Source: Oscillospiraceae bacterium
GTDB taxonomy: Bacteria > Bacillota > Clostridia > Oscillospirales > Oscillospiraceae
DNA: 33,242 nucleotides
Reading direction: 5' to 3'
NCBI GenBank assembly: GCA_016292255.1
Contig: JAEEZZ010000113.1
Coordinates: forward strand, 1 to 33,242
A model generated the notes under the pieces. The model ran no database searches. It was not told the DNA's origin and saw only the letters and a program-made list of their open reading frames with translations. Both the position numbers and the translations under genes were made by a program. Of the stretch, positions 2,255 through 33,242 are shown piece by piece. The first letter of the stretch is position 1; each line of letters begins with the position of its first letter.

Positions 2255-3115
2255 ATGGCAGAGATCTGGAAGGGCGCCCCGGTCGCGGCGGCGCTGAGTG
2301 AAGCGGTGGCCGCCGAGGTGACCGCGCTGAAAGAACGGGGCGTGGAGCCCACCCTCGCCATCCTGCGGGTGGGCGAGCGGGACGACGACCTGGCCTACGA
2401 GCGAGGCGCCATGAAGCGCTGCGAGAAGGTGGGCGTGGCCGTCAAAAACGTGATCCTTCCCGCGGACGTGGACAGCGAGACCTTTTTCTCCACCTTGGAG
2501 GGGCTGAACAACGATCCCACAGTCCACGGCATTCTGATGTTCCGTCCCCTGCCCAAGCAGCTGGACGGGGAAAAGGCCCGGCGGCTCCTGGCCCCCGAAA
2601 AGGACGTGGACGGCTGCACGGACGGCTCCCTGGCGGGCGTCTTCACCAACACCCCCCTGGGCTTCCCACCCTGCACGGCCCAGGCCGCCATGGAGCTGCT
2701 GCGCTACTACGGCGTGGATCCCAAGGGCAAGCGGGTGGCTGTGATCGGCCGCTCCCTGGTCATCGGCCGTCCGGTGGCCATGATGCTGATGCACGCCAAC
2801 GCCACGGTCACGGTCTGCCACACCCGCACGGTGGACGTGCCTTCGATTACCCGGGAGGCGGATATCGTGGTGGCGGCCTCCGGCCAGATGGAGAGCGTCA
2901 GCGCGGAGTACCTGCGCCCCGGCCAGATCGTCATTGACGTGGGCATCGGCTGGAACGAGGCCAAGCAGAAGCTCTGCGGCGATCTGCGCCAGGAAGAGGC
3001 GGAGCCCCTTGTGGCTGCCCTCACCCCGGTTCCCGGCGGCGTGGGGAACGTGACCTCCGCCGTGCTGTGCAAGCACGTGGTGGAGGCCGCAAAGCGGCAA
3101 ATGCAAAATGCATAA
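2255..3115 (+). CDS. folD: FolD-type methylene-THF dehydrogenase (cyclohydrolase residues altered)
   Basis: 286 aa, normal FolD length. FolD oxidises 5,10-methylene-THF to methenyl-THF with NAD(P) and usually hydrolyses that to 10-formyl-THF. Seen: LAILRVGERDDD near 34-45, substrate-side Tyr48, KDVDG with Asp119, a Rossmann part with VAVIGRSLVIGRPVAMML, and C-terminal TPVPGGVGNVTSAVL. Odd: the catalytic Lys four residues after the Tyr (K54 in E. coli) is Ala52, and the Gln of the usual ILVQLPLP motif is Phe96 in ILMFRPLP. The Asp is kept. From memory many clostridial FolD proteins share the YERGA form, so this is a subfamily trait rather than damage; it may be mainly a dehydrogenase. RBS GAGGTG lies 10 bases before ATG. 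The last residues and stop fall inside an AATGCATAATGC word array. Confidence 0.9.
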   Translation: MAEIWKGAPVAAALSEAVAAEVTALKERGVEPTLAILRVGERDDDLAYERGAMKRCEKVGVAVKNVILPADVDSETFFSTLEGLNNDPTVHGILMFRPLPKQLDGEKARRLLAPEKDVDGCTDGSLAGVFTNTPLGFPPCTAQAAMELLRYYGVDPKGKRVAVIGRSLVIGRPVAMMLMHANATVTVCHTRTVDVPSITREADIVVAASGQMESVSAEYLRPGQIVIDVGIGWNEAKQKLCGDLRQEEAEPLVAALTPVPGGVGNVTSAVLCKHVVEAAKRQMQNA

Positions 3116-3172
3116 TGCAAAATGCATAATGCAGAATGCATAATTACGGGAACAGGGAACCGGGAACCACGC
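3099..3172 (+). repeat. Word array: AATGCATAATGC then GGGAACAGGGAACC
   Basis: Starts inside the end of folD (the final codons and the TAA at 3113-3115 are made of the word), continues as AAAATGCATAATGC and AGAATGCATAATTA, then changes to CGGGAACAGGGAACCGGGAA. The same two-part order (GCATAATTA followed by GGGAAC words) returns at 3291-3326, so the REP-like block between them appears to split one array. Confidence 0.7.
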
Positions 3173-5849: not shown

Positions 5850-6325
5850 AGCCCGCCTGGAAAAAATGGCTGCTTCTGGGGCTGTTTATGGCCTTCATCG
5901 TGGCTGCCGACCAGATCACCAAGGCCCTGGTGCGGGCCCAGATCCCCTACGGGACCGGCGTCCGGCTGATCCCCGGGGTGGTGCAGCTCACCTACGTCCA
6001 CAACACCGGCGCGGCTTTCTCTATGCTCAGCGGCGCACGCTGGCTGTTCTTGGTGCTGGTGGTGGTTTTCTTTGCCGTGGTCGGGGTGCTGATCTACAAG
6101 AAGATCCTGACCAAGCCCGTGGAGCTCTGGACCCTGGCCGCCATCGGCGGCGGGGCCATCGGCAACGCCATCGACCGGGCCGCCACCGGGGCTGTGACGG
6201 ATATGATCGAGCCCCTGTTCATGAAGTTCGCCGTCTTCAACGTGGCGGACATCTTCATCACCTGCGGAGCGATTGTTCTGGTCGTTTATCTTCTCTTTTT
6301 CGATCGGGAAAAACGCGAGAAATAA
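5846..6325 (+). CDS. lspA: Signal peptidase II (prolipoprotein signal peptidase)
   Basis: 159-aa integral membrane aspartyl protease that cleaves lipoprotein signal peptides ahead of the lipidated Cys. Four hydrophobic segments. Seen: VAADQITKALV near 19-29, HNTGAAFS at 52-59, GGAIGNAIDR at 102-111, the catalytic Asp119 in VTDMI and Asp135 in FNVADIF. Substrates in this window include the BMP protein and two small lipoproteins. Start overlaps the previous stop (ATGA). The stop codon TAA runs directly into a CGAAAAACG word array. Confidence 0.96.
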   Translation: MKPAWKKWLLLGLFMAFIVAADQITKALVRAQIPYGTGVRLIPGVVQLTYVHNTGAAFSMLSGARWLFLVLVVVFFAVVGVLIYKKILTKPVELWTLAAIGGGAIGNAIDRAATGAVTDMIEPLFMKFAVFNVADIFITCGAIVLVVYLLFFDREKREK

Positions 6326-6373
6326 CGAAAAACGAAAAACGAAAAACGAAAAACTTCGGTGTCGCTGCGCGAC
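6323..6373 (+). repeat. GAAAAACG word array after lspA
   Basis: The lspA stop TAA is followed by four CGAAAAA(C) words, then a short perfect hairpin GTCGC-TGC-GCGAC (6361-6373). The same word occurs at 13747-13765 and 33021-33050 and inverted at about 13834-13848. Confidence 0.65.
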
Positions 6374-12978: not shown

Positions 12979-13740
12979 ATGTATTTTGACTCTCATGCCC
13001 ACCTGGACGACCGGAAATTCGACGCCGACCGGGACGAGATCTTCGCCCAGCTGCCGAAGCAGGGGGTGGGGCTGATCATGAACATCGGCTGCGACCTGAA
13101 AAGCAGCCTGCAAAGCGTGGCCCTGGCCCACAAGTACCCCTTCGTCTACGCCGCCGTGGGCTCCCACCCGGACGACGCCGCCCAGGTGGACGACGCCCGG
13201 CTGGCCCTCTACCGCCAGCTCTGCGCCGACGAGCGGGTGAAGGCCATCGGGGAGATCGGCCTGGACTACCACTACGAGGATCCCACCCGGGAGGTGCAGC
13301 TGCCCGCCTTCCGCAGGCAGCTGGAGCTGGCCCGGGAGCTGGATCTGCCCGTCATCGTCCACGAGCGGGAGGCCCACGCCGACGGCATGGAGCTGATCCG
13401 TCAATTCCCGGAGGTAACAGGGGTATTTCACTGCTATTCCGGCGCGGTGGAGCAGGCCAGGGAGCTGGTGCAGCGGGGCTGGTATATCGGCTTCACCGGC
13501 GTCATCACCTTTAAGAATAACCGGAAAAACGTGGAGGTGGCCGAGTCGCTCCCCCTGGATCGGATCCTGATCGAGACCGACTGCCCCTACATGGCCCCGG
13601 AGCCCCATCGGGGCAGGCGCAACGACAGCCGCCTGGTCCCCCTGGTGGCCGCCAAGCTGGCGGAGATCAAGGGCGTCACCCCGGAGGAAATGGGAAGAAT
13701 TACGACGGAAAACGCTAAGAAATTATTCAGGATACCGTAA
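12979..13740 (+). CDS. tatD: TatD family metal-dependent deoxyribonuclease
   Basis: 253 aa TIM-barrel hydrolase of the amidohydrolase superfamily; TatD proteins are Mg-dependent 3'-5' nucleases implicated in DNA repair. Metal ligands are visible: SHAHLDD at 5-11, GEIGLDYHYED with the bridging Glu, VIVHER, FHCYSG, and ETDCPYMAPEPHRG with the catalytic Asp. AGGAG precedes ATG. It is transcribed alone between two - strand genes. The stop TAA runs into CTGAAAATGAAAAACG of a word array. In many Firmicutes tatD sits near metG or rsmA; that neighbourhood is not kept here. Another TatD paralogue (YabD/YcfH) cannot be separated by eye. Confidence 0.93.
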   Translation: MYFDSHAHLDDRKFDADRDEIFAQLPKQGVGLIMNIGCDLKSSLQSVALAHKYPFVYAAVGSHPDDAAQVDDARLALYRQLCADERVKAIGEIGLDYHYEDPTREVQLPAFRRQLELARELDLPVIVHEREAHADGMELIRQFPEVTGVFHCYSGAVEQARELVQRGWYIGFTGVITFKNNRKNVEVAESLPLDRILIETDCPYMAPEPHRGRRNDSRLVPLVAAKLAEIKGVTPEEMGRITTENAKKLFRIP

Positions 13741-13855
13741 CTGAAAATGAAAAACGAAAAACGAAGAACTGAGGTATTTTCCAATTTACAAATTGGAAAA
13801 TGGAATTTGAATCCGTCCCGGAGGGACACCTTAGTTTTTCGTTTTTCGTTCTACG
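13738..13855. repeat. GAAAAACG word array with two palindromes between tatD and hslO
   Basis: Begins at the tatD stop TAA. Words GAAAAACGAAAAACG (from 13750) lead into a perfect palindrome TTTTCCAATTT-AC-AAATTGGAAAA, then a small hairpin GTCCC-GGA-GGGAC, then the words inverted (TTTTTCGTTTTTCG) up to the hslO stop. The order word, purine-rich GAGGT, T4-palindrome-A4 matches the 115-bp unit at 33018, but the palindrome sequence differs. Confidence 0.7.
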
Positions 13856-13857
13856 TT

Positions 13858-14736
13858 TTACAGTTTTTCCAGAATCTCCCGCACCTCCGCCGGGGTGAAC
13901 AGGTACTTCGTGTCGCAGAATTGGCACTCCATTTTCACGTCCTCGTCGGAGGCGGCGATCTCCGCCAGCTCCTCCTTGCCCAGGCTGATGAGGGCGGCCT
14001 CTACCCGCTCCCGGGTGCAGTAGCAGCGGTATTCCACCGCGGTCGGCTCGAAGAATTCCAGCTCCATGCCGCCGGTGACCTTGGTGAGCATCTCCTGCAA
14101 AGACAGGCCCGCGTCCAGCATGGCGGTGACGGAGCCTGCGGCGGCGATGCCCGCCTCCAGCTTGTCGATGACGGTGTCCGGGGCCCCGGGGAGCAGCTGC
14201 AAGATGAAGCCGCCCGCCACCTTGACGCTGTGATCCACGTCCACCAGGACGCCCAGGCCGCAGGCGGAGGGGCACTGCTCGGACTGCACCAGGTAGGCCG
14301 TCACGTCGTCGCCGATCTCGCCGGAGACCAGCTCCACGGAGCCCACGTAGGGCTCCTTCATTTGCAGATCCCGGATCACGGTCAGCATACCGTCGGTGCC
14401 CACAGCCGCGCCCACGTCCAGCTTCCCGGCGTATTTTTCCAGCAGGGTGATGTGGGGGTTCTGCACGTAGCCCCGGACGTTGCCCTCTGCGTCGGAGACC
14501 GCCAGGATCGTCCCCAGGGGGCCGCCGCCCTTGATCTGCAGGGTGACGGAGCCGTTTTCGATCTTCTGCATATTGCCCAGCATGGCGCAGGCGGACAGAG
14601 TCCGGCCCAGGGCAGCCGTGGCGGTAGGGGTGGTGTCGTGGATGGCCCGTGCCCGCTCCACGATGTTTTTGGAATTGATGGCGACCGCCTTGACCCACCC
14701 GTCGGTGGTCATGGCGCGCAAAATCTGATCTGACAT
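13858..14736 (-). CDS. hslO: Hsp33 redox-regulated molecular chaperone
   Basis: 292 aa, normal length. Cytosolic holdase chaperone activated by oxidation: four C-terminal cysteines bind zinc when reduced and form disulfides under peroxide or heat stress. All four are present: C238-Y-C240 and C271-Q-F-C274. N-terminal body shows GRTLSACAMLGNMQ, IKGGGPLGTILAVSDAEGNVRGYV and the QSEQCPSACGLGVLV segment. Start chosen at ATG 14736 because AGGAGTT lies 7 bases before it; the longer frame would translate the AATGCATAATGC word array. Downstream of the methyltransferase gene with an 80-bp word-array gap. Confidence 0.95.
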   Translation of the reverse strand: MSDQILRAMTTDGWVKAVAINSKNIVERARAIHDTTPTATAALGRTLSACAMLGNMQKIENGSVTLQIKGGGPLGTILAVSDAEGNVRGYVQNPHITLLEKYAGKLDVGAAVGTDGMLTVIRDLQMKEPYVGSVELVSGEIGDDVTAYLVQSEQCPSACGLGVLVDVDHSVKVAGGFILQLLPGAPDTVIDKLEAGIAAAGSVTAMLDAGLSLQEMLTKVTGGMELEFFEPTAVEYRCYCTRERVEAALISLGKEELAEIAASDEDVKMECQFCDTKYLFTPAEVREILEKL

Positions 14737-14753: not shown

Positions 14754-14826
14754 AAAATGCACAATGCATAATGCAAAATGAAAGCGGCAAAGCAATTATG
14801 CATTATGCATTGTGCATTATGCATTC
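14754..14826. repeat. AATGCATAATGC word array, words in both orientations
   Basis: AAAATGCACAATGCATAATGC on the left, then AAGCGGCAAAGC, then ATTATGCATTATGCATTGTG on the right: the same word inverted. The methyltransferase stop (14817-14819) and its last residues lie within the right half, as happens at the end of folD. Confidence 0.7.
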
Positions 14827-15560
14827 GCCTTTTGCGCTGCAATAAATATTCTCTGCTCCTCTGCCTTGGGCGCTTCCAGCCGCCGGTCGCCGTAGACCTG
14901 CACGTCCCGGAAGCCAGCCTCGGTCAGCCAGGCGCACAGCTCCTCCGTCCGGTAGGCGTATTCCAGGTGCTCCTCCCGGCTCCGCTCCCAGAGCCTGCCC
15001 TGCTTCTGGAAAATGTCCATCCCGTAGCGGCAGATCCGGCTTTCCCCGTCGAACTCCGCCCGCCAGAGGCAGAACACCGCGTCGTCCTCGTCCAGCAGGA
15101 TCTGCCCGTCCAGCCCCCGGAGCTTGGCCTCGGAGTTGATATCGAAGATGAACAGGCCGCCGGGATTCAGGGCCTTGTACACGCGGGAGAAGGCCTCCCG
15201 CAGGGCGGCGGGCTCCGTCACGTAGTTGACCCCGTCCAGACAGCAGACCACCAGATCCACCGGCTGGGGCAGCCGCAGCTTTTCCATCCTCTGGCGGATG
15301 AAGTAGGGCGGGTTTTCCAGCCCTCCGGCCTTTTCTGCGGCCTGGGTCAGCATTTCCTCGCTCTGATCCACCCCCAGGACGGACAGGCCCTCCTTTGCCA
15401 GCAGCAGGGCCATGGAGCCGGTGCCGCAGGCCAGATCCACCGCGGAGGCGGGCCGGAGGCCGTAGGCCTCCAGGATTCGGTGATAGAATTCCAGCACGGC
15501 CTCGTAGGGCACGTCGTTCGTCAGGCGGTCATAGACCGCCGCCAGGGCTTCGTAGGCCAT
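14817..15560 (-). CDS. Class I SAM-dependent methyltransferase
   Basis: 247 aa. Rossmann-type methyltransferase domain over about residues 1-150: AYEALAAVYDRLTNDVPYE start, SAM-binding motif I VDLACGTGSMALLLA at 41-55, acidic LGVDQSEEML at the end of beta2, DLVVCCLDGVNYV (motif II region) and LNPGGLFIFDINSE. The C-terminal half (CRYGMDIF...EEHLEYAYRTEELCAWLTEAGF) is typical of small-molecule methyltransferases of this group, common in Firmicutes with no assigned substrate. GGAGG 4 bases before ATG. It follows the lipoprotein gene by 55 bp containing a hairpin. The final three residues are encoded within a word array. Confidence 0.88.
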   Translation of the reverse strand: MAYEALAAVYDRLTNDVPYEAVLEFYHRILEAYGLRPASAVDLACGTGSMALLLAKEGLSVLGVDQSEEMLTQAAEKAGGLENPPYFIRQRMEKLRLPQPVDLVVCCLDGVNYVTEPAALREAFSRVYKALNPGGLFIFDINSEAKLRGLDGQILLDEDDAVFCLWRAEFDGESRICRYGMDIFQKQGRLWERSREEHLEYAYRTEELCAWLTEAGFRDVQVYGDRRLEAPKAEEQRIFIAAQKANA

Positions 15561-23493: not shown

Positions 23494-23602
23494 CTATCTG
23501 AGTTATGATTTTGCCGTGCAAAAGTTATGATTGCTTCGCAAGTTATGATTGCTTCGCAAGTTATGATTGTGCTTCGCACAAGTTATGATTGCTGCGCAAG
23601 TT
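23494..23602. repeat. AGTTATGATT word-hairpin array, left copy
   Basis: AGTTATGATT words alternate with short perfect hairpins that differ: TTGC-CGT-GCAA, TTGC-TTC-GCAA (twice), TGTGC-TTC-GCACA, TTGC-TGC-GCAA. The stretch 23494-23578 is repeated directly at 24304-24388 (offset 810) with three mismatches over 85 bp. The words have no start codon or RBS role for cdd except that the repeat begins only 16 bases upstream of it. Confidence 0.8.
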
Positions 23603-23606
23603 GACC

Positions 23607-23659
23607 GCAGGGGTCGCAGGGGCCGTAGGGGTCGTAGGGGCGAGCATCGCTCGTCCCCC
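23607..23659. repeat. Tandem GNAGGGG 9-mers ending in a REP hairpin
   Basis: Four consecutive nonamers GCAGGGGTC, GCAGGGGCC, GTAGGGGTC, GTAGGGGCG; the last GTAG is the foot of the hairpin GGGGCGAGC-ATC-GCTCGTCCCC. It lies 20 bp from the RAYT stop codon and is the left REP of the RAYT block. Confidence 0.7.
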
Positions 23660-23678
23660 AAGTCCCAAACACGGCACA

Positions 23679-24161
23679 TCATTCACAAATGTAATATTTA
23701 TCCTCCAGCCAACGATACGGGTTATTTTCGATGTATTGCCATCTGACGGCAAAATCATTCGCATCCCGAATCACATGGTCGTAATACAACTTTTGCCAAA
23801 CGGAGCGGCCAATCTGTTTCGTCACATATCCCTTGAACTGCTGGATGACCTTTGAAACCGAGACGGCCTTTTCGCCGGCGGGATTTTCCAGGCGCAGCAG
23901 CAAATGGATGTGGTTCGGCATAATCACGTAATTCTCAAGCCGCACACTTGGATAATGGACGGGAATTGCTTGTATGGACTGATCCGCGATCATTCCAACG
24001 TCTGACAGCCGAATCAGCGCAGCCTGGCCCTCTCCTCCGTCAACGACAGCACCAAACACGCATTGTCTGTTTTCTGCGCACATCGTAATAAAATACGCAT
24101 AGTTTTGGCTGTAATCGAAATCCGGGATCCGGTTCGGTTTTCTGCGGTGTTCATGATTCAT
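23679..24161 (-). CDS. REP-associated tyrosine transposase (RAYT, Y1/HUH family)
   Basis: 160 aa single-domain Y1 transposase related to IS200/IS605 TnpA. Seen: YSQNYAYFITMCAENRQCVFG N-terminal strand, HUH motif MPNHIHLLL (His-Ile-His), then QQFKGYVTKQIGRSVWQKLYYDHVIRD and YIENNPYRW, which carries the candidate nucleophilic Tyr. RAYTs are domesticated, usually single-copy and nick at GTAG-foot hairpins to spread REP elements. Inverted GTAG-type palindromes lie on both sides. Start at ATG 24161 is preferred to the TTG seven codons upstream; the RBS (GGGTGA) is weak. No TnpB gene and no IS ends. Frame intact, so probably functional or recently so. Confidence 0.88.
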   Translation of the reverse strand: MNHEHRRKPNRIPDFDYSQNYAYFITMCAENRQCVFGAVVDGGEGQAALIRLSDVGMIADQSIQAIPVHYPSVRLENYVIMPNHIHLLLRLENPAGEKAVSVSKVIQQFKGYVTKQIGRSVWQKLYYDHVIRDANDFAVRWQYIENNPYRWLEDKYYICE

Positions 24162-24192
24162 GGCATCACCCACGCGGTACAATCACTCTGCG

Positions 24193-24306
24193 GCATGGGG
24201 ACGAGCAATGCTCGCCCCTACGGACCGGTCGCAGGATCGTTTTCCTACGGCGCTCTGCGGCATGGGGACGAGCGATACCCATGAAGGGCACAGGTGCTCG
24301 CCCCTA
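24193..24306. repeat. REP-like elements upstream of the RAYT gene
   Basis: First unit GGGGACGAGC-AAT-GCTCGCCCCTAC (24197-24221, ending in the inverse of GTAG). Second unit 24264-24306: GGGGACGAGC, then GATACCCATGAAGGGCACAG, then GTGCTCGCCCCTA; this is the inverse of the element at 3175-3216. Both begin after CTGCGGCATG, so the pair is a tandem-like duplication. With the left REP they bracket the RAYT as inverted repeats. Confidence 0.7.
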
Positions 24307-24482
24307 TCTGAGTCATGATTTTGCTGCGCAAAAGTTATGATTGCTTCGCAAGTTATGATTGCTTCGCAAGTTATGATTGTGCTTCGCAAAAGTTATGATT
24401 GCTTCGCAAGCTGCTAACTGCCGAAGGCACCATAACTGCGCCGTCAGGCGTATCATAACTTGCCCGCAAGGGCAATCATAAC

Positions 24483-24485
<3 letters not shown>
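24304..24485. repeat. AGTTATGATT word-hairpin array, right copy, ending at the deoB stop
   Basis: Direct repeat of 23494-23578, then further words. After about 24409 the words appear inverted (ATAACT, ATCATAACTT) around other hairpins: TGCC-GAA-GGCA, CGCC-GTCA-GGCG, TTGCCC-GCAA-GGGCAA. The last word merges with the TAA stop of deoB (24483-24485). With the REPs this fills the 321-bp gap between the RAYT and deoB; no gene is seen in it. Confidence 0.8.
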
Positions 24486-25646
<1,161 letters not shown>

Positions 25647-25669
25647 AGTACCAACCTTTCTTTCATCGG

Positions 25670-25920
25670 ATGAAGTATCGCCTGACGGCGATATGAAGCA
25701 TTCCTTGCGGAATATGAAGTATCTCCCTTGGAGATATGAAGTATGTGCTTCGCACATATTGCGGTATCGGTTTATTCTGCGAATAAACCGATGGAAAATA
25801 ATGATTCCCAAAGCGGGAAATGCTTCCCGTTGCGTCAAATATGGCGCAGCCATACTTCATAAGCAAAGCGACTTCATGCGGCGAAGCCGTGCTTCATATC
25901 TGCATCAGCAGATACTTCAT
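25670..25920. repeat. ATGAAGT word-hairpin array between deoD and deoB
   Basis: ATGAAGT/ATGAAGC words at 25670, 25693, 25714, 25736 alternate with perfect hairpins of different sequence: ATCGCC-TGAC-GGCGAT, ATTCC-TTGC-GGAAT, ATCTCC-CTT-GGAGAT, ATGTGC-TTC-GCACAT. A longer hairpin with 11-bp arms follows (25766-25792), then TTCCC/GGGAA and ATGGC-GCA-GCCAT, and then the word inverted (ACTTCAT at 25854, 25871, 25914; GCTTCAT at 25891) around CGGC-GAA-GCCG and ATCTGC-ATCA-GCAGAT. The final ACTTCAT contains the deoD stop. The whole 270-bp gap is this array plus the deoB RBS. Confidence 0.85.
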
Positions 25921-26657
25921 TTTTCCAGCGCCACCGCCGTTTCCAGCGCCACCTTCATCATTTGCTCGAAGCCGGTCTGGCGCTCGTCGGCGGAGAGGTA
26001 CTCGTGCCGCACCAGCTGGTCGGAGACGGTGCAGATGCACAGGGCGTTTTTCCGCAGCCGGGCGGCGTTGAGGTAGAGGGCGGCGGATTCCATTTCGATG
26101 GCCATAATGCCCATCTTCTGCCAGTTTTTCTTGGGGTTCAGAGCGTCGGGCACGCCTTCGTCGTCGTCATAGAAGAAGTCGGAGGACAGGATGTTGCCCA
26201 CGTGGTAGACCGCGCCCAGGGCCTCGGCGGCCTGGGTGGCCGCGTGGAGCATTTCAAAGGAGCAGATGGGGGCGAAGTTCCCCATCAGATGGAATTGGGC
26301 CTGATAGTTGGAGTCGGAGCTGGCGCCCATGGCGATCACGATGTCCTTCAGGTTGATGTCCGGTTGGATCGCACCGGCGGAGCCGATCCGCATGATGTTG
26401 CGGACGTTGTAGGCCTCATAGAGCTCCCGGGAATAGATGCCGATGGAGGGCATACCCATGCCGGAGGCCATTACGGAGAGCCGGACGCCCTTGTAGAGGC
26501 CGGTGTAGCCCTGCACGCCCCGGACGTTGTTCACCAGGACGGGATTTTCCAGAAAATGTTCTGCAATGTATTTGGCCCGCAGGGGATCGCCGGGCATCAG
26601 CACTGTCTGCCCGAAGTCGGCAGGCGTCGCCTTGATATGCGGGGTCGGGTAGTTCAT
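25917..26657 (-). CDS. deoD: Purine-nucleoside phosphorylase, DeoD type
   Basis: 246 aa hexameric-type enzyme (NP-I family) splitting purine (deoxy)nucleosides into base and pentose-1-phosphate. Seen: phosphate-binding MPGDPLRAKYIAEHFLE, VMASGMGMPSIGIYSREL, RIGSAGAIQ, MGIMAIEMESAALY and TVSDQL with the catalytic Asp. Length is slightly above the usual 235. AAAGGAG precedes ATG. It begins 21 bases after the tdk stop, so tdk-deoD form one transcript; deoB follows after the ATGAAGT array. Substrate range (adenosine as well as guanosine) is inferred from the DeoD type. Confidence 0.96.
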   Translation of the reverse strand: MNYPTPHIKATPADFGQTVLMPGDPLRAKYIAEHFLENPVLVNNVRGVQGYTGLYKGVRLSVMASGMGMPSIGIYSRELYEAYNVRNIMRIGSAGAIQPDINLKDIVIAMGASSDSNYQAQFHLMGNFAPICSFEMLHAATQAAEALGAVYHVGNILSSDFFYDDDEGVPDALNPKKNWQKMGIMAIEMESAALYLNAARLRKNALCICTVSDQLVRHEYLSADERQTGFEQMMKVALETAVALEK

Positions 26658-30272: not shown

Positions 30273-31631
30273 TCATGGTTCCGTAGGGGCGCACATTGTG
30301 CGTCCGCCGGAATATTCAACCACCACGGCGGCCTCCCCCTCCTTTGCCATCCAGGTGGGGTCGCAGCCGACGCCGAACACGGCAACGGGCTTTCCCGCTG
30401 CGGTCAGCACCGGCACGGCGTTCCGCTGCCGGGCGGGAATCTTCCGGTCGATCATCAAGGCCTTGAGCGGCTTGGTTCCGCCGGGGAGCGTGAGCCTGTC
30501 GCCGGGGCGTCTGCCGCGGACGTACAGCTCGAGCGTTGCTATCATATCACACTTTATTGCAAAGGTGGTAAGGTTTTTTTTGAAGTTTTTTAAATTTTTT
30601 GTTACACGGCAGGAAATCGTTCCCAGGCCGTCAGGCAGCGCGGTGCAGCCGGGTACCTGGAGCGCAAGCTCCGGCAGCGCGGGAGCTGTCTCCGCACCGG
30701 AAAAGCCCAGCAGATCATAGGTGCGCCGGGCGATCCATCCGCCCGGCAGCGCGGCCTTGGCGGAGGGAGCGGCAGTCAGAAGCCGTTCCAGGGCCTCCAC
30801 GTAGACCTGGGCGGGATCCTCCAGCCCCAGCTCCGTGAGCATGGCCAGCAGCACCCGGCGTCGAAGCACGGGCTCCAGCGCCAGCAGCGCCTCGCAGGAC
30901 CAGCCGCCTTCCCTGCGGCAGTCCGCCGCGGCCCGGGCGGCCAGACGGGAGAGAAACCCGTCCTCCTCCCGGAGCAGGGCGGCTGTGCGGCCCAGGGTGC
31001 GGCTCAGATTGGGATTTTCGGCCCGCAGCAGGGGCAGGACCCGGTGGCGCAGCCGGTTGCGGACGCAGTCGTCCGCCGCGTTGGTGCCGTCCTCCACATG
31101 GGGCAGCCCCTCCCGCTCCAGCAGCGCCTCGATCTCCGCTCTGGTGCAGGCCAGAAGCGGACGGATGACAGCCCCCCGGCGGACGGGGATGCCGCCCAGT
31201 CCCCGCAGGCCGGTGCCCCGGAGCAGATGCAGCAGCATGGTCTCGGCGTTGTCGTCGGCGTTGTGGGCGGTAGCCAGCTTGCCGGGGGAAACGCTCTGCA
31301 GATAGGCATAGCGCAGCACCCGGGCGGCCTCCTCCAGGCTTTCGCCGGTTTCCGCCGCTCTTGCAGTCACGTCCCCGCCGCCCAGAGAGAAGGGAACAGC
31401 CCAATCCGCGCAGAGCTTCCGGCAGAATTCCGCGTCCCGATCCGCCTCTGCGCCCCGCAGTCCGTGATGGAAATGAGCGGCCCGCAGGCTGATCCCCAGC
31501 TGTGGAGCCAGGGCCCGCAGGATCCGGAGCAGGGCCACGGAGTCGGCCCCGCCGGACAGCGCCACGGTCACGTCGTCCCCCGGGTCGATCAACCCGTTGT
31601 CGCGGATAAACCGCAGCACCTTTTCTTCCAT
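30273..31631 (-). CDS. tilS: tRNA(Ile)-lysidine synthetase
   Basis: 452 aa. Adds lysine to C34 of the CAU-anticodon tRNA-Ile so that it reads AUA; essential. Seen: PP-loop ALSGGADSVALL (SGGADS at 26-31), HFHHGLRGAEADRDAEFC, TAHNADDNAETMLLHLLRGTG, NAADDCVRNRLRHRVLPLL, and a C-terminal domain from about 310 with LYVRGRRPGDRLTLPGGTKPLK and DRKIPARQR. The start at ATG 31631 is preferred to an upstream in-frame TTG; its RBS (GAGAA) is weak. A stretch within the C-terminal half (TKNLKNFKKNLTTFAIKCDM) is locally AT-rich. The last residues, GGRTMCAPTEP, are encoded by a REP-like element. Confidence 0.95.
   Translation of the reverse strand: MEEKVLRFIRDNGLIDPGDDVTVALSGGADSVALLRILRALAPQLGISLRAAHFHHGLRGAEADRDAEFCRKLCADWAVPFSLGGGDVTARAAETGESLEEAARVLRYAYLQSVSPGKLATAHNADDNAETMLLHLLRGTGLRGLGGIPVRRGAVIRPLLACTRAEIEALLEREGLPHVEDGTNAADDCVRNRLRHRVLPLLRAENPNLSRTLGRTAALLREEDGFLSRLAARAAADCRREGGWSCEALLALEPVLRRRVLLAMLTELGLEDPAQVYVEALERLLTAAPSAKAALPGGWIARRTYDLLGFSGAETAPALPELALQVPGCTALPDGLGTISCRVTKNLKNFKKNLTTFAIKCDMIATLELYVRGRRPGDRLTLPGGTKPLKALMIDRKIPARQRNAVPVLTAAGKPVAVFGVGCDPTWMAKEGEAAVVVEYSGGRTMCAPTEP
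30282..30309. repeat. REP-like element forming the end of tilS
   Basis: CCGTAGGGGCGCACATTGTG followed by CGTCCGCC: GTAG foot plus a GGCGCAC/GTGCGTC palindrome, the same family as at 21602. It lies inside the tilS coding region, whose stop is at 30273-30275. Confidence 0.65.
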
Positions 31632-31633
31632 GG

Positions 31634-31662
31634 TATTCTCAATTCTCAATGTTCAATTCTCA
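31634..31662. repeat. TTGAGAATTGA words between dnaB and tilS
   Basis: On the - strand the dnaB stop TGA is the start of GAGAATTGAAC, ATTGAGAATTGAGAATACC and then the tilS ATG. The gap is composed of three near-copies of TTGAGAATTGA; the stop codon is part of the first word. Confidence 0.55.
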
Positions 31663-33006
31663 ACTGTGAATGGTGTCCAGATCCGAGAAAGAGAAGAACT
31701 GGGGCCGCCACTGTACCTTGACGGTGCCCGTCTCCCCGTGGCGGTTCTTTGCCACAATGCACTCACACACGTTTTGCTCAGCGGTGTTGGGGTTGTAATA
31801 GTCGTCCCGGTAGAGCATGATGACCTGGTCGGCGTCCTGCTCGATGGCGCCGGATTCCCGCAGGTCGGAGAGCAGCGGACGCTTGTCGGTGCGGCCCTCG
31901 GAGGCACGGGAAAGCTGGCTCAGGCAGATCACGGGGACGTTCAGATCCTTGGCCATAATCTTCAGCGCCCGGGAGATCTCCGCCACCACGTTGACGCGGT
32001 TTTCGGCGCTGCGGCTGTCCTTGTCGGCCCGGGTCATCAGCTGGAGATAGTCCACCACGATCAGCCCCAGGTTGTCCAGGCGTCGGCAGAGGGCGTTCAT
32101 CTCCGTGACGGAGACGGTGGGATTGTCCGAGACCCGGATGTCTGTCTGGGACAGGGCGGAGGATGCGATGGCGATCTTTTCCCAATCCTCCTGATCCAGC
32201 CGTCCGGTGGTGAGCTTTTTGTTGTCCACGGCGCTTTCGCAGGACAGGAGTCGGGCGGCCAGCTGCTCCCGGGACATTTCCAGGGAGAAGAAGGCCACGG
32301 TCTTGCGGGTCACCTTGGCCACATGGGCCAGGATGTTCAGCGCGATGGTGGTCTTGCCCATGCCGGGGCGGGCGGCAATGATGATCAGATCCGATTTGTT
32401 CAGACCGTTGATCTGCCGATCCAGATCCCGGAGACCGGTGGGGGCGCCGGGAATATCGCTGTCGGATTGGGACAGCTCGTTCAGGTGGCCGAAGAGCTTG
32501 ACCATGATGGTGCCGATGCGTTCCAGCTCGTCGTCGGCGTTGCCCCGGCGCAGGCCGAAGACCTTGCGCTCGGCGCTGTCCAGGATGGAGGAGGCGGTGC
32601 CCTCCTCCCGGATGGCCATTTCGTTGATATCCGTGGCGGCTTGGGACAGGGCGCGCAGCAGGGCCTTGTCCCGGACGATGCCGGCGTAGTGCTTCACGTT
32701 GGCCGCCGTGGGGGTGATCTCCATGAGCTGGCGCATATAGCCTGGGGTTGTGGCCTCGTCGTAGTAGCCGTTTTCCTTGAGCTTGCCCAGCACGGTCACC
32801 ACGTCGATGGGCAGGGAGTAGCTGAACATCCGATAGACCGTCTCATAGATCTCCCGGTTCTGGCGCAGATAGAAGTCCTCGGGCTTGAGGATCCCCACCA
32901 CGTCGCCCACGCAGCGGCTGTCGATCAGAATAGACCCCAGCACCGCCTGCTCAGCCTCCAGACTCTGCGGAAGCTGCTTACTGATCAGATCATCAAATTC
33001 TGGCAC
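31660..33006 (-). CDS. dnaB: Replicative DNA helicase DnaB
   Basis: 448 aa hexameric 5'-3' helicase (DnaC in B. subtilis naming) that unwinds the chromosome at the fork and recruits primase. N-terminal domain LPQSLEAEQAVLGSILIDS, linker, then RecA-like domain: Walker A ARPGMGKTT at 212-220, FSLEMSREQLAARLL, Walker B LIVVDYLQLM, SQLSRASEGRTDKRPLLSDLRESGAIEQDAD, and CECIVAKNRHGETGTV. Start is a GTG at 33006 preceded by GAGGTGA with a 5-base gap; it gives MPEFDDLISKQLPQS, a normal DnaB N-terminus. The longer frame to 33195 would translate the tandem repeat and is rejected. Another GTG nine bases upstream is part of the RBS. Confidence 0.95.
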   Translation of the reverse strand: MPEFDDLISKQLPQSLEAEQAVLGSILIDSRCVGDVVGILKPEDFYLRQNREIYETVYRMFSYSLPIDVVTVLGKLKENGYYDEATTPGYMRQLMEITPTAANVKHYAGIVRDKALLRALSQAATDINEMAIREEGTASSILDSAERKVFGLRRGNADDELERIGTIMVKLFGHLNELSQSDSDIPGAPTGLRDLDRQINGLNKSDLIIIAARPGMGKTTIALNILAHVAKVTRKTVAFFSLEMSREQLAARLLSCESAVDNKKLTTGRLDQEDWEKIAIASSALSQTDIRVSDNPTVSVTEMNALCRRLDNLGLIVVDYLQLMTRADKDSRSAENRVNVVAEISRALKIMAKDLNVPVICLSQLSRASEGRTDKRPLLSDLRESGAIEQDADQVIMLYRDDYYNPNTAEQNVCECIVAKNRHGETGTVKVQWRPQFFSFSDLDTIHS

Positions 33007-33017
33007 GTATCTCACCT

Positions 33018-33242
33018 CGAAACGAAAAACGCAAATTGAAAAACGAAAAACATAGGAGTTTTGCAATTCAAGAATTGCAAAAGGAAGGACGGACGGAAAG
33101 CAACTACAGATCAATGATTTCTGCATCGGCATCGAAACGTAGATCGCAAATTGAAAAACGAAAAACATAGGAGTTTTGCAATTCAAGAATTGCAAAAGAA
33201 AGGACGGACGGAAAGCAACTACAGATCAATGATTTCTGCATC
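33018..33242. repeat. 115-bp tandem duplication upstream of dnaB
   Basis: Units start at 33018 and 33133 (both CGAAAC); 33031-33127 recurs at 33146-33242 with one mismatch. Each unit has CAAATTGAAAAACGAAAAAC, AGGAG, and a perfect palindrome TTTTGCAATTC-AA-GAATTGCAAAA (33059-33082). On the - strand each unit starts with GATGCAGAAATC and ends after a TAG. The window stops inside the second unit, so more copies may follow. Confidence 0.85.
33219..33242 (-). CDS. Possible 3' end of the gene upstream of dnaB (7 codons)
   Basis: On the - strand the window edge reads DAEIIDL then TAG. The same string is present 115 bp inward (33104-33127), preceded by FDA in frame, and looks like a duplicated gene end. 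With only seven codons the product cannot be identified; in many Firmicutes rplI lies here, but this sequence does not establish it. Confidence 0.3.
   Translation of the reverse strand, partial: DAEIIDL

Follow-up and report, generated by a model that had tools for sequence, protein, structure and literature searches.

The array of seven-base words and small hairpins at positions 25670-25920 of contig JAEEZZ010000113.1 from an Oscillospiraceae bacterium (assembly GCA_016292255.1; its 33,242 nucleotides are referred to below as the window) is real. It is a member of a broad class of heptamer-word elements associated with genes of the S23/IVP family (PF05635), the hairpin type being one variant of this class. 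The array itself is probably a non-autonomous copy of an S23/IVP element, i.e. of a small element with dispersed copies and a 7-bp word at its borders, in direct orientation at one end and inverted at the other. Full-length copies enclose or adjoin a gene for a PF05635 four-helix-bundle protein (IVP); as the window copy holds no gene, it can only be a gene-less derivative of such an element.

A constant word, variable hairpins and dispersed copies

The array fills the gap between the deoD stop and the deoB start, both genes being on the minus strand (Table 1). The four direct and four inverted ATGAAGT/C words described in an earlier, sequence-only reading were all located, with direct words on one side and inverted words on the other in the mirror symmetry that it had noted. 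Nine to ten hairpins with differing stems were found, in line with its count of at least nine, but not all of them are perfect as it had stated: AAGCAAAGCG is weak and the outer pair of GCGGC/GCCGT is G-T. By eye, central-type hairpins around TTCTGCGAA/TTCGCAGAA also adjoin IVP genes with other words.

The genome-wide search that had been suggested bears the array out. Indeed, the unit pattern ATGAAGYAT-N4..30-ATATGAAG has 82 matches in the 2.9-Mb draft genome (35 forward, 47 reverse) versus 0 for the same pattern read backwards, and the array is therefore not a product of chance. At least 23 two-sided copies are present in this genome, and the sequence-only reading had overlooked that the array is a dispersed element with many copies in unrelated places. 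Among chained words, counted with up to two mismatches, 411/486 match ATGAAGT exactly; position 7 is the variable one, and positions 1-6 keep the same base in at least 97.9% of words. With the outermost ATGAAG/CTTCAT taken by script as the element ends, 63 two-sided elements of six genomes span 127-336 bp, the window copy counting as 289 bp because a chance CTTCAT at 25953 is included; in an alignment of 16 elements similarity stops at the outer words.

From these 63 elements, 345 spacers bounded by words (182 distinct) were taken, and their pairing was set against that of shuffled partners. The inner stem of 16-nt spacers (61 distinct) forms 3.70 of 4 pairs versus 2.21 in shuffles (maximum 2.52), and spacers of 13, 14 and 15 nt also pair above every shuffle; 11-nt spacers (22 distinct) show no excess (1.86 versus 1.87). 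The stems are drawn from a small repertoire (ATTTGC, ATCCGC, ATCGCC, ATTCC, ATCTCC, ATGCC and others). Between species, orthologous elements with both flanks matched provided 393 stem pairs from equal-length hairpins, a set whose comparisons share genomes, match units by order and are not independent: 355 show no change, 17 differ on both sides but still form Watson-Crick pairs, 19 differ on one side, and 2 belong to other classes. A further 64 orthologous unit pairs differ in length, the hairpin having been replaced or moved. Given the double-sided changes and the length-differing units, both compensatory substitution and exchange of whole hairpins occur, and the stem changes could stem either from selection on the fold or from repair of palindromes by template switching. 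The view that conservation concerns the word and the capacity to pair, and not the stem sequence, thus stands, since orthologs in sister species keep both while their stems change; the array is not unique to this genome, and elsewhere its changed stems mostly remain paired.

In the genus, 15 of 23 genomes have the unit pattern, with 113 matches in G017. In a family sample, it occurs in 7 of 200 genomes; the five that lie outside the genus have one match each, a level that the reversed control also reaches in the same 200 genomes (three genomes, one match each). Classed by eye in 18 genomes, the deoD-deoB gap holds an ATGAAGT element in four (G000, which is the genome of the window, G008, G013 and G002), a remnant in G015, another word in seven (G001, G017, G018, G019 and G020; weaker in G003 and G014) and no array in six (G016, G010, G011, G009, G006 and G007). 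The infB-rbfA gap, classed likewise in 20 genomes, holds ATGAAG words with an IVP gene in five (G000, G017, G022, G006 and G011), decayed copies in four (G018, G021, G003 and G008), an ATGAAG-word element without gene in G013, another word in G001 and G014, and nothing in seven; in G007 it is unreadable. No target-site duplication was seen in 61/63 elements, versus 59.7 expected with shuffled flanks, so that none lies above chance. Two pairs of contigs (G000:C158:20-223 / G001:C42:20-246 and G000:C85:54 / G001:C65:54) begin at an identical point inside elements, at the same unit positions; these are either assembly breaks at repeats or contigs common to the bins of the two species.

As RNA, the element is predicted to be strongly folded on both strands (z = -9.85 for plus, -9.72 for minus), direct words pairing with inverted words and the complementary terminal sequences forming a stem. 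On 100/126 element sides, the stop of an open frame of 90 codons or more lies in the element or close to it; this stop is the TGA of the first word on 27 sides and of the next word on 9.

IVP genes and Gut-1 RNA at the elements

The copy at G000:C37 encloses, between direct and inverted words, a 122-aa protein that matches PF05635 (23S_rRNA_IVP) with 91.9 bits (cut-off 33.8) and TIGR02436 (four helix bundle protein) with 101.8 bits. Full-length copies with a PF05635 gene were found here and in four sister genomes. The genus has 74 PF05635 matches in 16/23 genomes, for which 51 distinct open frames were examined (one of 79 aa, L102, was left out of the tree described below). By eye, most of 49 genus loci are bracketed by short-word repeats, direct upstream and inverted downstream, and in several hairpin families both word halves lie upstream of the gene. 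Words at IVP loci are either in plain tandem (TAGTCAC, GGCAATA, GTGACAA, GGATCAG, GTTCAGA, GAAAAAC and more) or separated by hairpins (ATGAAGT, GTTATGA, GTGATGT, GTKATAT), and one family has period 8 (ATGAAACT). Hairpin-type IVP elements were observed close behind tRNA genes at L286, L301, L283, L307, L319, L267, L270, L296 and L107.

By script, and with flanks shorter than 200 or 150 bases excluded from the 8-mer, lag and combined-criterion counts, an inverted shared 8-mer score of at least 10 was reached at 33/48 genus IVP loci versus 2/69 control segments, and strong lag-7 repeats were present at 64/164 IVP loci versus 0 at lag 6 and 4 at lag 8; this genus control and the other lags are the comparisons relied on. 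Hairpin-separated words lie within 400 bp of the IVP gene at 32/76 GTDB loci, and a combined criterion was positive at 39/48 genus, 61/76 GTDB, 22/30 phylum and 8/8 plasmid loci; a strict hairpin-cluster detector, which found few arrays at IVP genes, was replaced. Period 7, which is the common one, also occurs in Cyanobacteriota plasmids (Nostoc, Calothrix, Geminocystis, Anabaena) and at IVP loci on Bacteroidota, Arcobacter and Verrucomicrobia contigs. In plasmids of Pseudanabaena galeata and Anabaena sp. 90 (L242, L243), heptamer-array IVP genes sit between cas6 and cas4 of CRISPR (clustered regularly interspaced short palindromic repeats) loci.

Phylogenetic analysis of 50 IVPs indicates that the 12 word labels need 11 changes, the minimum, while shuffled labels average 27.7; labels for this and for the distance test were set by eye, and two loci at which no word was seen form one of the 12 groups. 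Word distance follows protein distance among 23 representatives (rho 0.34, p = 0.0002), and the words GTGACAA (two loci of G021), GGCARTA and GGATCAG each span more than one site, with different neighbour genes. Within the window, each of nine array stretches has one IVP locus in the same genome with which it has the most 10-mers in common, in a comparison made with no shuffled control: C37 for the ATGAAGT stretch (29 shared, next 10), C85 for the AGTTATGATT stretches (56 and 36), C79 for the AAAAACG stretches (10, 14 and 142), C6 for the TGCATAA stretches (12 and 7) and C115 for 31600-31700 (5, next 1).

Across the 23 genus genomes, array number correlates with IVP number (Spearman 0.57, p = 0.005; Fisher p = 0.026 for presence/absence). 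The same comparison bears on repetitive extragenic palindromes (REP) and bacterial interspersed mosaic elements (BIME) spread by a REP-associated tyrosine transposase (RAYT, a Y1 HUH transposase). The arrays resemble REP/BIME in being dispersed palindromes in paired orientation, with a constant foot to the hairpins and no target duplication, and the genome has three Y1 matches and the window itself a RAYT gene. However, RAYT spread is expected to copy one stem sequence, whereas here the word is constant and the stem changes. The number of RAYT genes does not follow array number (Spearman 0.06): G017, a draft 82% complete, has 113 array matches and no Y1 match, and G014, also incomplete, has five Y1 matches and no array match. 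Furthermore, the genome's own three Y1 loci (about 1.5 kb on each side) show only scattered ATGAAG/CTTCAT and no array, and the window RAYT gene lies, by eye, among GGGGACGAGC..GCTCGCCCC palindromes within a different word array. A RAYT origin, which we rate as very improbable, was rejected on distribution, largely by G017 and G014, in agreement with the earlier statement that the array is not a REP. Array number also correlates with RVT_1 matches (Spearman 0.46, p = 0.03), which occur in 13/23 genomes and are absent from G013 with its 32 array matches; a reverse transcriptase is at most a possible obligatory partner.

Rfam brings in another named relative. The window has matches to Gut-1 RNA (RF01706) that appear only in E-value mode, Rfam giving none in the window at the gathering threshold; the better one aligns the word and three hairpins in register. 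The gathering score was reached at 5/20 chosen loci (L296, L311, L283, L262 and L307), in four loci just upstream of the IVP gene and at L262 at a distance of over 1 kb from it, and at L296, L283, L307 and L301 Gut-1 is followed by the inverted half, as a reverse-strand match, and then by the IVP gene. According to a section of PMC2864571, Gut-1 is likely a noncoding RNA present only in human-gut sequences; when described, it was known from environmental sequences alone. It has the word (A/G)UGAAAU between hairpins, with spacing and fold as in the window array; it differs in that the window array falls below the gathering cut-off and in that gathering-level matches cover a direct half, with the inverted half following and an IVP gene beside it. 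In our reading, Gut-1 represents the direct half of an IVP element of the hairpin type. The earlier opinion that no named element class fits the array must accordingly be given up, since Gut-1 has the same architecture and full-length relatives carry S23/IVP genes.

The likeness to Gut-1, together with the strong fold of both strands, the covariation and the position of the array between co-directional deoD and deoB, would also suit a cis-acting structured RNA or free-standing small RNA, the kind that Gut-1 was described as, that serves the host, for example in mRNA processing or insulation between cistrons. We consider this unlikely, as sister species lack the array or have other words at the same site, copies are scattered over many unrelated locations, and Gut-1 itself adjoins IVP genes, with an inverted half next to it. 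A host role may have been acquired later.

Proposed mechanism and points against it

For the S23/IVP element, we propose that the word would be the recognised unit and the hairpins interchangeable spacers. The element RNA, read through with the operon, would fold into a rod, with words zipped and hairpins as side arms, that may be cut by RNase III as reported for the intervening sequences (IVS) of 23S rRNA. The IVP, which would form a ring (a pentamer in solved relatives, with a fold near Avd of the ribonucleoprotein of diversity-generating retroelement reverse transcriptases), would recognise the word as RNA or DNA and act in trans on word arrays without gene, and this would be why word and spacing stay while stems drift. 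New copies might arise via an RNA or single-stranded intermediate, using host or resident enzymes, a route proposed because IVP has no known nuclease activity and no target duplication was found. We know of no nuclease activity or catalytic site of IVP, and we infer its role in word binding and mobilisation.

Use of the words as DNA is also indicated. Upstream of IVP genes with a hairpin-word array, a sigma-70-like promoter scoring at least 10/12 was found at 11/41 loci, and in 10/11 of these the -35 box starts at the end of the last word or one base before, a position that points to words being used as DNA too; autoregulation of IVP by the words is possible. At L275, L263, L319, L272, L251 and others, the last inverted word directly abuts the -35 box of the IVP promoter, which has a 17-base spacer.

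Sharp ends, inverted termini, many gene-less copies and the lack of a known catalytic site in IVP would likewise be expected of a conventional miniature inverted-repeat transposable element (MITE), moved by an unrelated transposase that reads ATGAAGT ends and with IVP as passenger or maintenance gene. There is no target duplication, however, and words change with IVP lineage; in searches that covered the families PF01797 and RVT_1, we regard this explanation as improbable.

Several observations weigh against the S23/IVP element as proposed. Plain co-inheritance would also give a correlation of word and IVP, and site orthology accounts for part of it; looked at one by one, the ATGAAGT and GGATCAG groups need two changes each on the IVP tree, and the word-distance test within groups is weak (p = 0.06 in group II, p = 0.21 in group I). 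The array-rich genomes G001 and G013, both incomplete, have no ATGAAGT-type IVP among the matches checked (4/4 and 3/4), and their infB-rbfA gaps hold another word and an element without IVP, respectively. ATGAAGT matches are nearly confined to the genus. The combined criterion was empty at 9/48 genus, 15/76 GTDB and 8/30 phylum loci, some of which show arrays by eye, and it was positive in 5/10 one-per-locus controls and 16/80 tiles of the array-holding window; in the GTDB set, 40% of 15 same-locus segments scored at least 10. All these controls are poor, and those from short GTDB loci are too few and contaminated by neighbouring arrays. Finally, those Clostridia loci in which the IVP promoter lies downstream of the complete array fit a DNA operator as well as an excised RNA, and the Avd match has a Foldseek E of 0.2.

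Other arrays in the window and relation to known systems

The sequence-only reading had overlooked a second hairpin-word family and six further heptamer stretches in the window. The former (AGTTATGATT) extends over 23501-24490, and an IVP gene with this word is present at G000:C85:34888; by eye, the RAYT gene and the GGGGACGAGC..GCTCGCCCC palindromes sit between two stretches of it. At 13739-13868, a complete mini-element consists of AAAAACG heptamers, a long perfect central hairpin and inverted heptamers, its word being that of G000:C79. Further intergenic stretches, with TGCATAA, AAAAACG, CAATTCT and GAAAAAC words, lie at 3091-3148, 6313-6362, 14756-14835, 31635-31670 and 33030-33195, the last found by eye and via the C79 match. 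At the same threshold, the window has no stretch at lag 6 or 8.

Table 1. Features of the ATGAAGT array and its surroundings in the window
Feature	Position	Strand	Basis or remark
Whole ATGAAGT element, probably non-autonomous, 251 bp	25670-25920	.	sequence and genome-wide comparison
Direct word 1, ATGAAGT	25670-25676	+	read from sequence
Hairpin 1, ATCGCC TGAC GGCGAT	25677-25692	.	read from sequence
Direct word 2, ATGAAGC	25693-25699	+	read from sequence
Hairpin 2, ATTCC TTGC GGAAT	25700-25713	.	read from sequence
Direct word 3, ATGAAGT	25714-25720	+	read from sequence
Hairpin 3, ATCTCC CTT GGAGAT	25721-25735	.	read from sequence
Direct word 4, ATGAAGT	25736-25742	+	read from sequence
Hairpin 4, ATGTGC TTC GCACAT	25743-25757	.	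read from sequence
Long central hairpin, perfect 12-bp stem, loop TGC	25766-25792	.	stem 25766-25777/25781-25792
Middle hairpin, CGGGAA/TTCCCG	25814-25829	.	read from sequence
Hairpin ATGGC GCA GCCAT	25841-25853	.	read from sequence
Inverted word 1, ACTTCAT	25854-25860	-	read from sequence
Weak hairpin AAGCAAAGCG	25861-25870	.	read from sequence
Inverted word 2, ACTTCAT	25871-25877	-	read from sequence
Hairpin GCGGC GAA GCCGT	25878-25890	.	inner four pairs standard, outermost G-T
Inverted word 3, GCTTCAT	25891-25897	-	read from sequence
Hairpin ATCTGC ATCA GCAGAT	25898-25913	.	read from sequence
Inverted word 4, ACTTCAT	25914-25920	-	complement holds the TGA stop of deoD
Gut-1 RNA match (RF01706)	25668-25747	+	Rfam, 32.3 bits (gathering 50)
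Second, weaker Gut-1 match	25866-25922	-	23.0 bits
deoD, purine-nucleoside phosphorylase	25917-26657	-	NCBIfam
deoB, phosphopentomutase	24483-25646	-	NCBIfam
RAYT gene	23679-24182		profile match; 1.5 kb from array

CRISPR have longer direct repeats (20-50 nt), unrelated spacers and one orientation. They are ruled out here, as had been concluded before, by the 7-nt word, the self-complementary spacers and the switch of orientation; nor is the array a simple microsatellite. Diversity-generating retroelements, whose Avd was mentioned above, differ in that a reverse-transcriptase partner of the present elements is at most a possibility, with RVT_1 genes in 13/23 genus genomes.

Among the closest known systems is the IVS of 23S rRNA, from which the S23/IVP family is known; the family is said, in part of PMC4990558, to have no known function. 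Shared features are the protein family (PF05635, TIGR02436), termini that pair into a stem, and a sporadic distribution; furthermore, the same part of this source describes tandem heptamers before the gene in the Coxiella IVS. In contrast, the words here are separated by varied hairpins, many copies are gene-less, and copies with named neighbours are located outside 23S rRNA, either behind tRNA genes or in gaps between protein genes. The window copy, in the deoD-deoB gap, is thus not a strict 23S rRNA IVS and could at most work like one.

A second likeness concerns the tandem heptanucleotide repeats of Xanthomonas (GGGAATC) and Nostoc, which are 7-bp words, mostly intergenic and nearer the upstream gene, those of Xanthomonas being often able to form inverted pairs; heptameric repeats are over-represented in bacterial genomes, and polymerase slippage is the cause proposed (all from sections of PMC4692102). 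A search of that source for the terms S23, helix bundle and intervening found none of them. The element class rests on known parts, namely IVS, S23 and the heptamers in one IVS. In a literature search of titles, abstract starts and term counts, which left out most subscription journals and bioRxiv, IVP genes and flanking heptamers were not found joined in general, nor was Gut-1 linked to IVP elements.

A broader reading is put forward tentatively, and we hold it to be possible yet doubtful. S23/IVP proteins across bacteria would be the recognition subunit of an unrecognised class of mobile elements, in which a 7-bp word code co-diversifies with the protein and gene-less arrays spread in trans by way of an RNA intermediate, an Avd-like IVP ribonucleoprotein taking part; this would account for Gut-1, the variable-hairpin arrays and much of the excess of heptameric repeats. 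Three loose ends, the S23/IVP family, Gut-1 RNA and heptameric repeats, are thereby joined. Should IVP indeed recognise the word, the family's function would become testable through word binding, and repeats of gut Clostridia, Bacteroidota and cyanobacteria would share a common cause.
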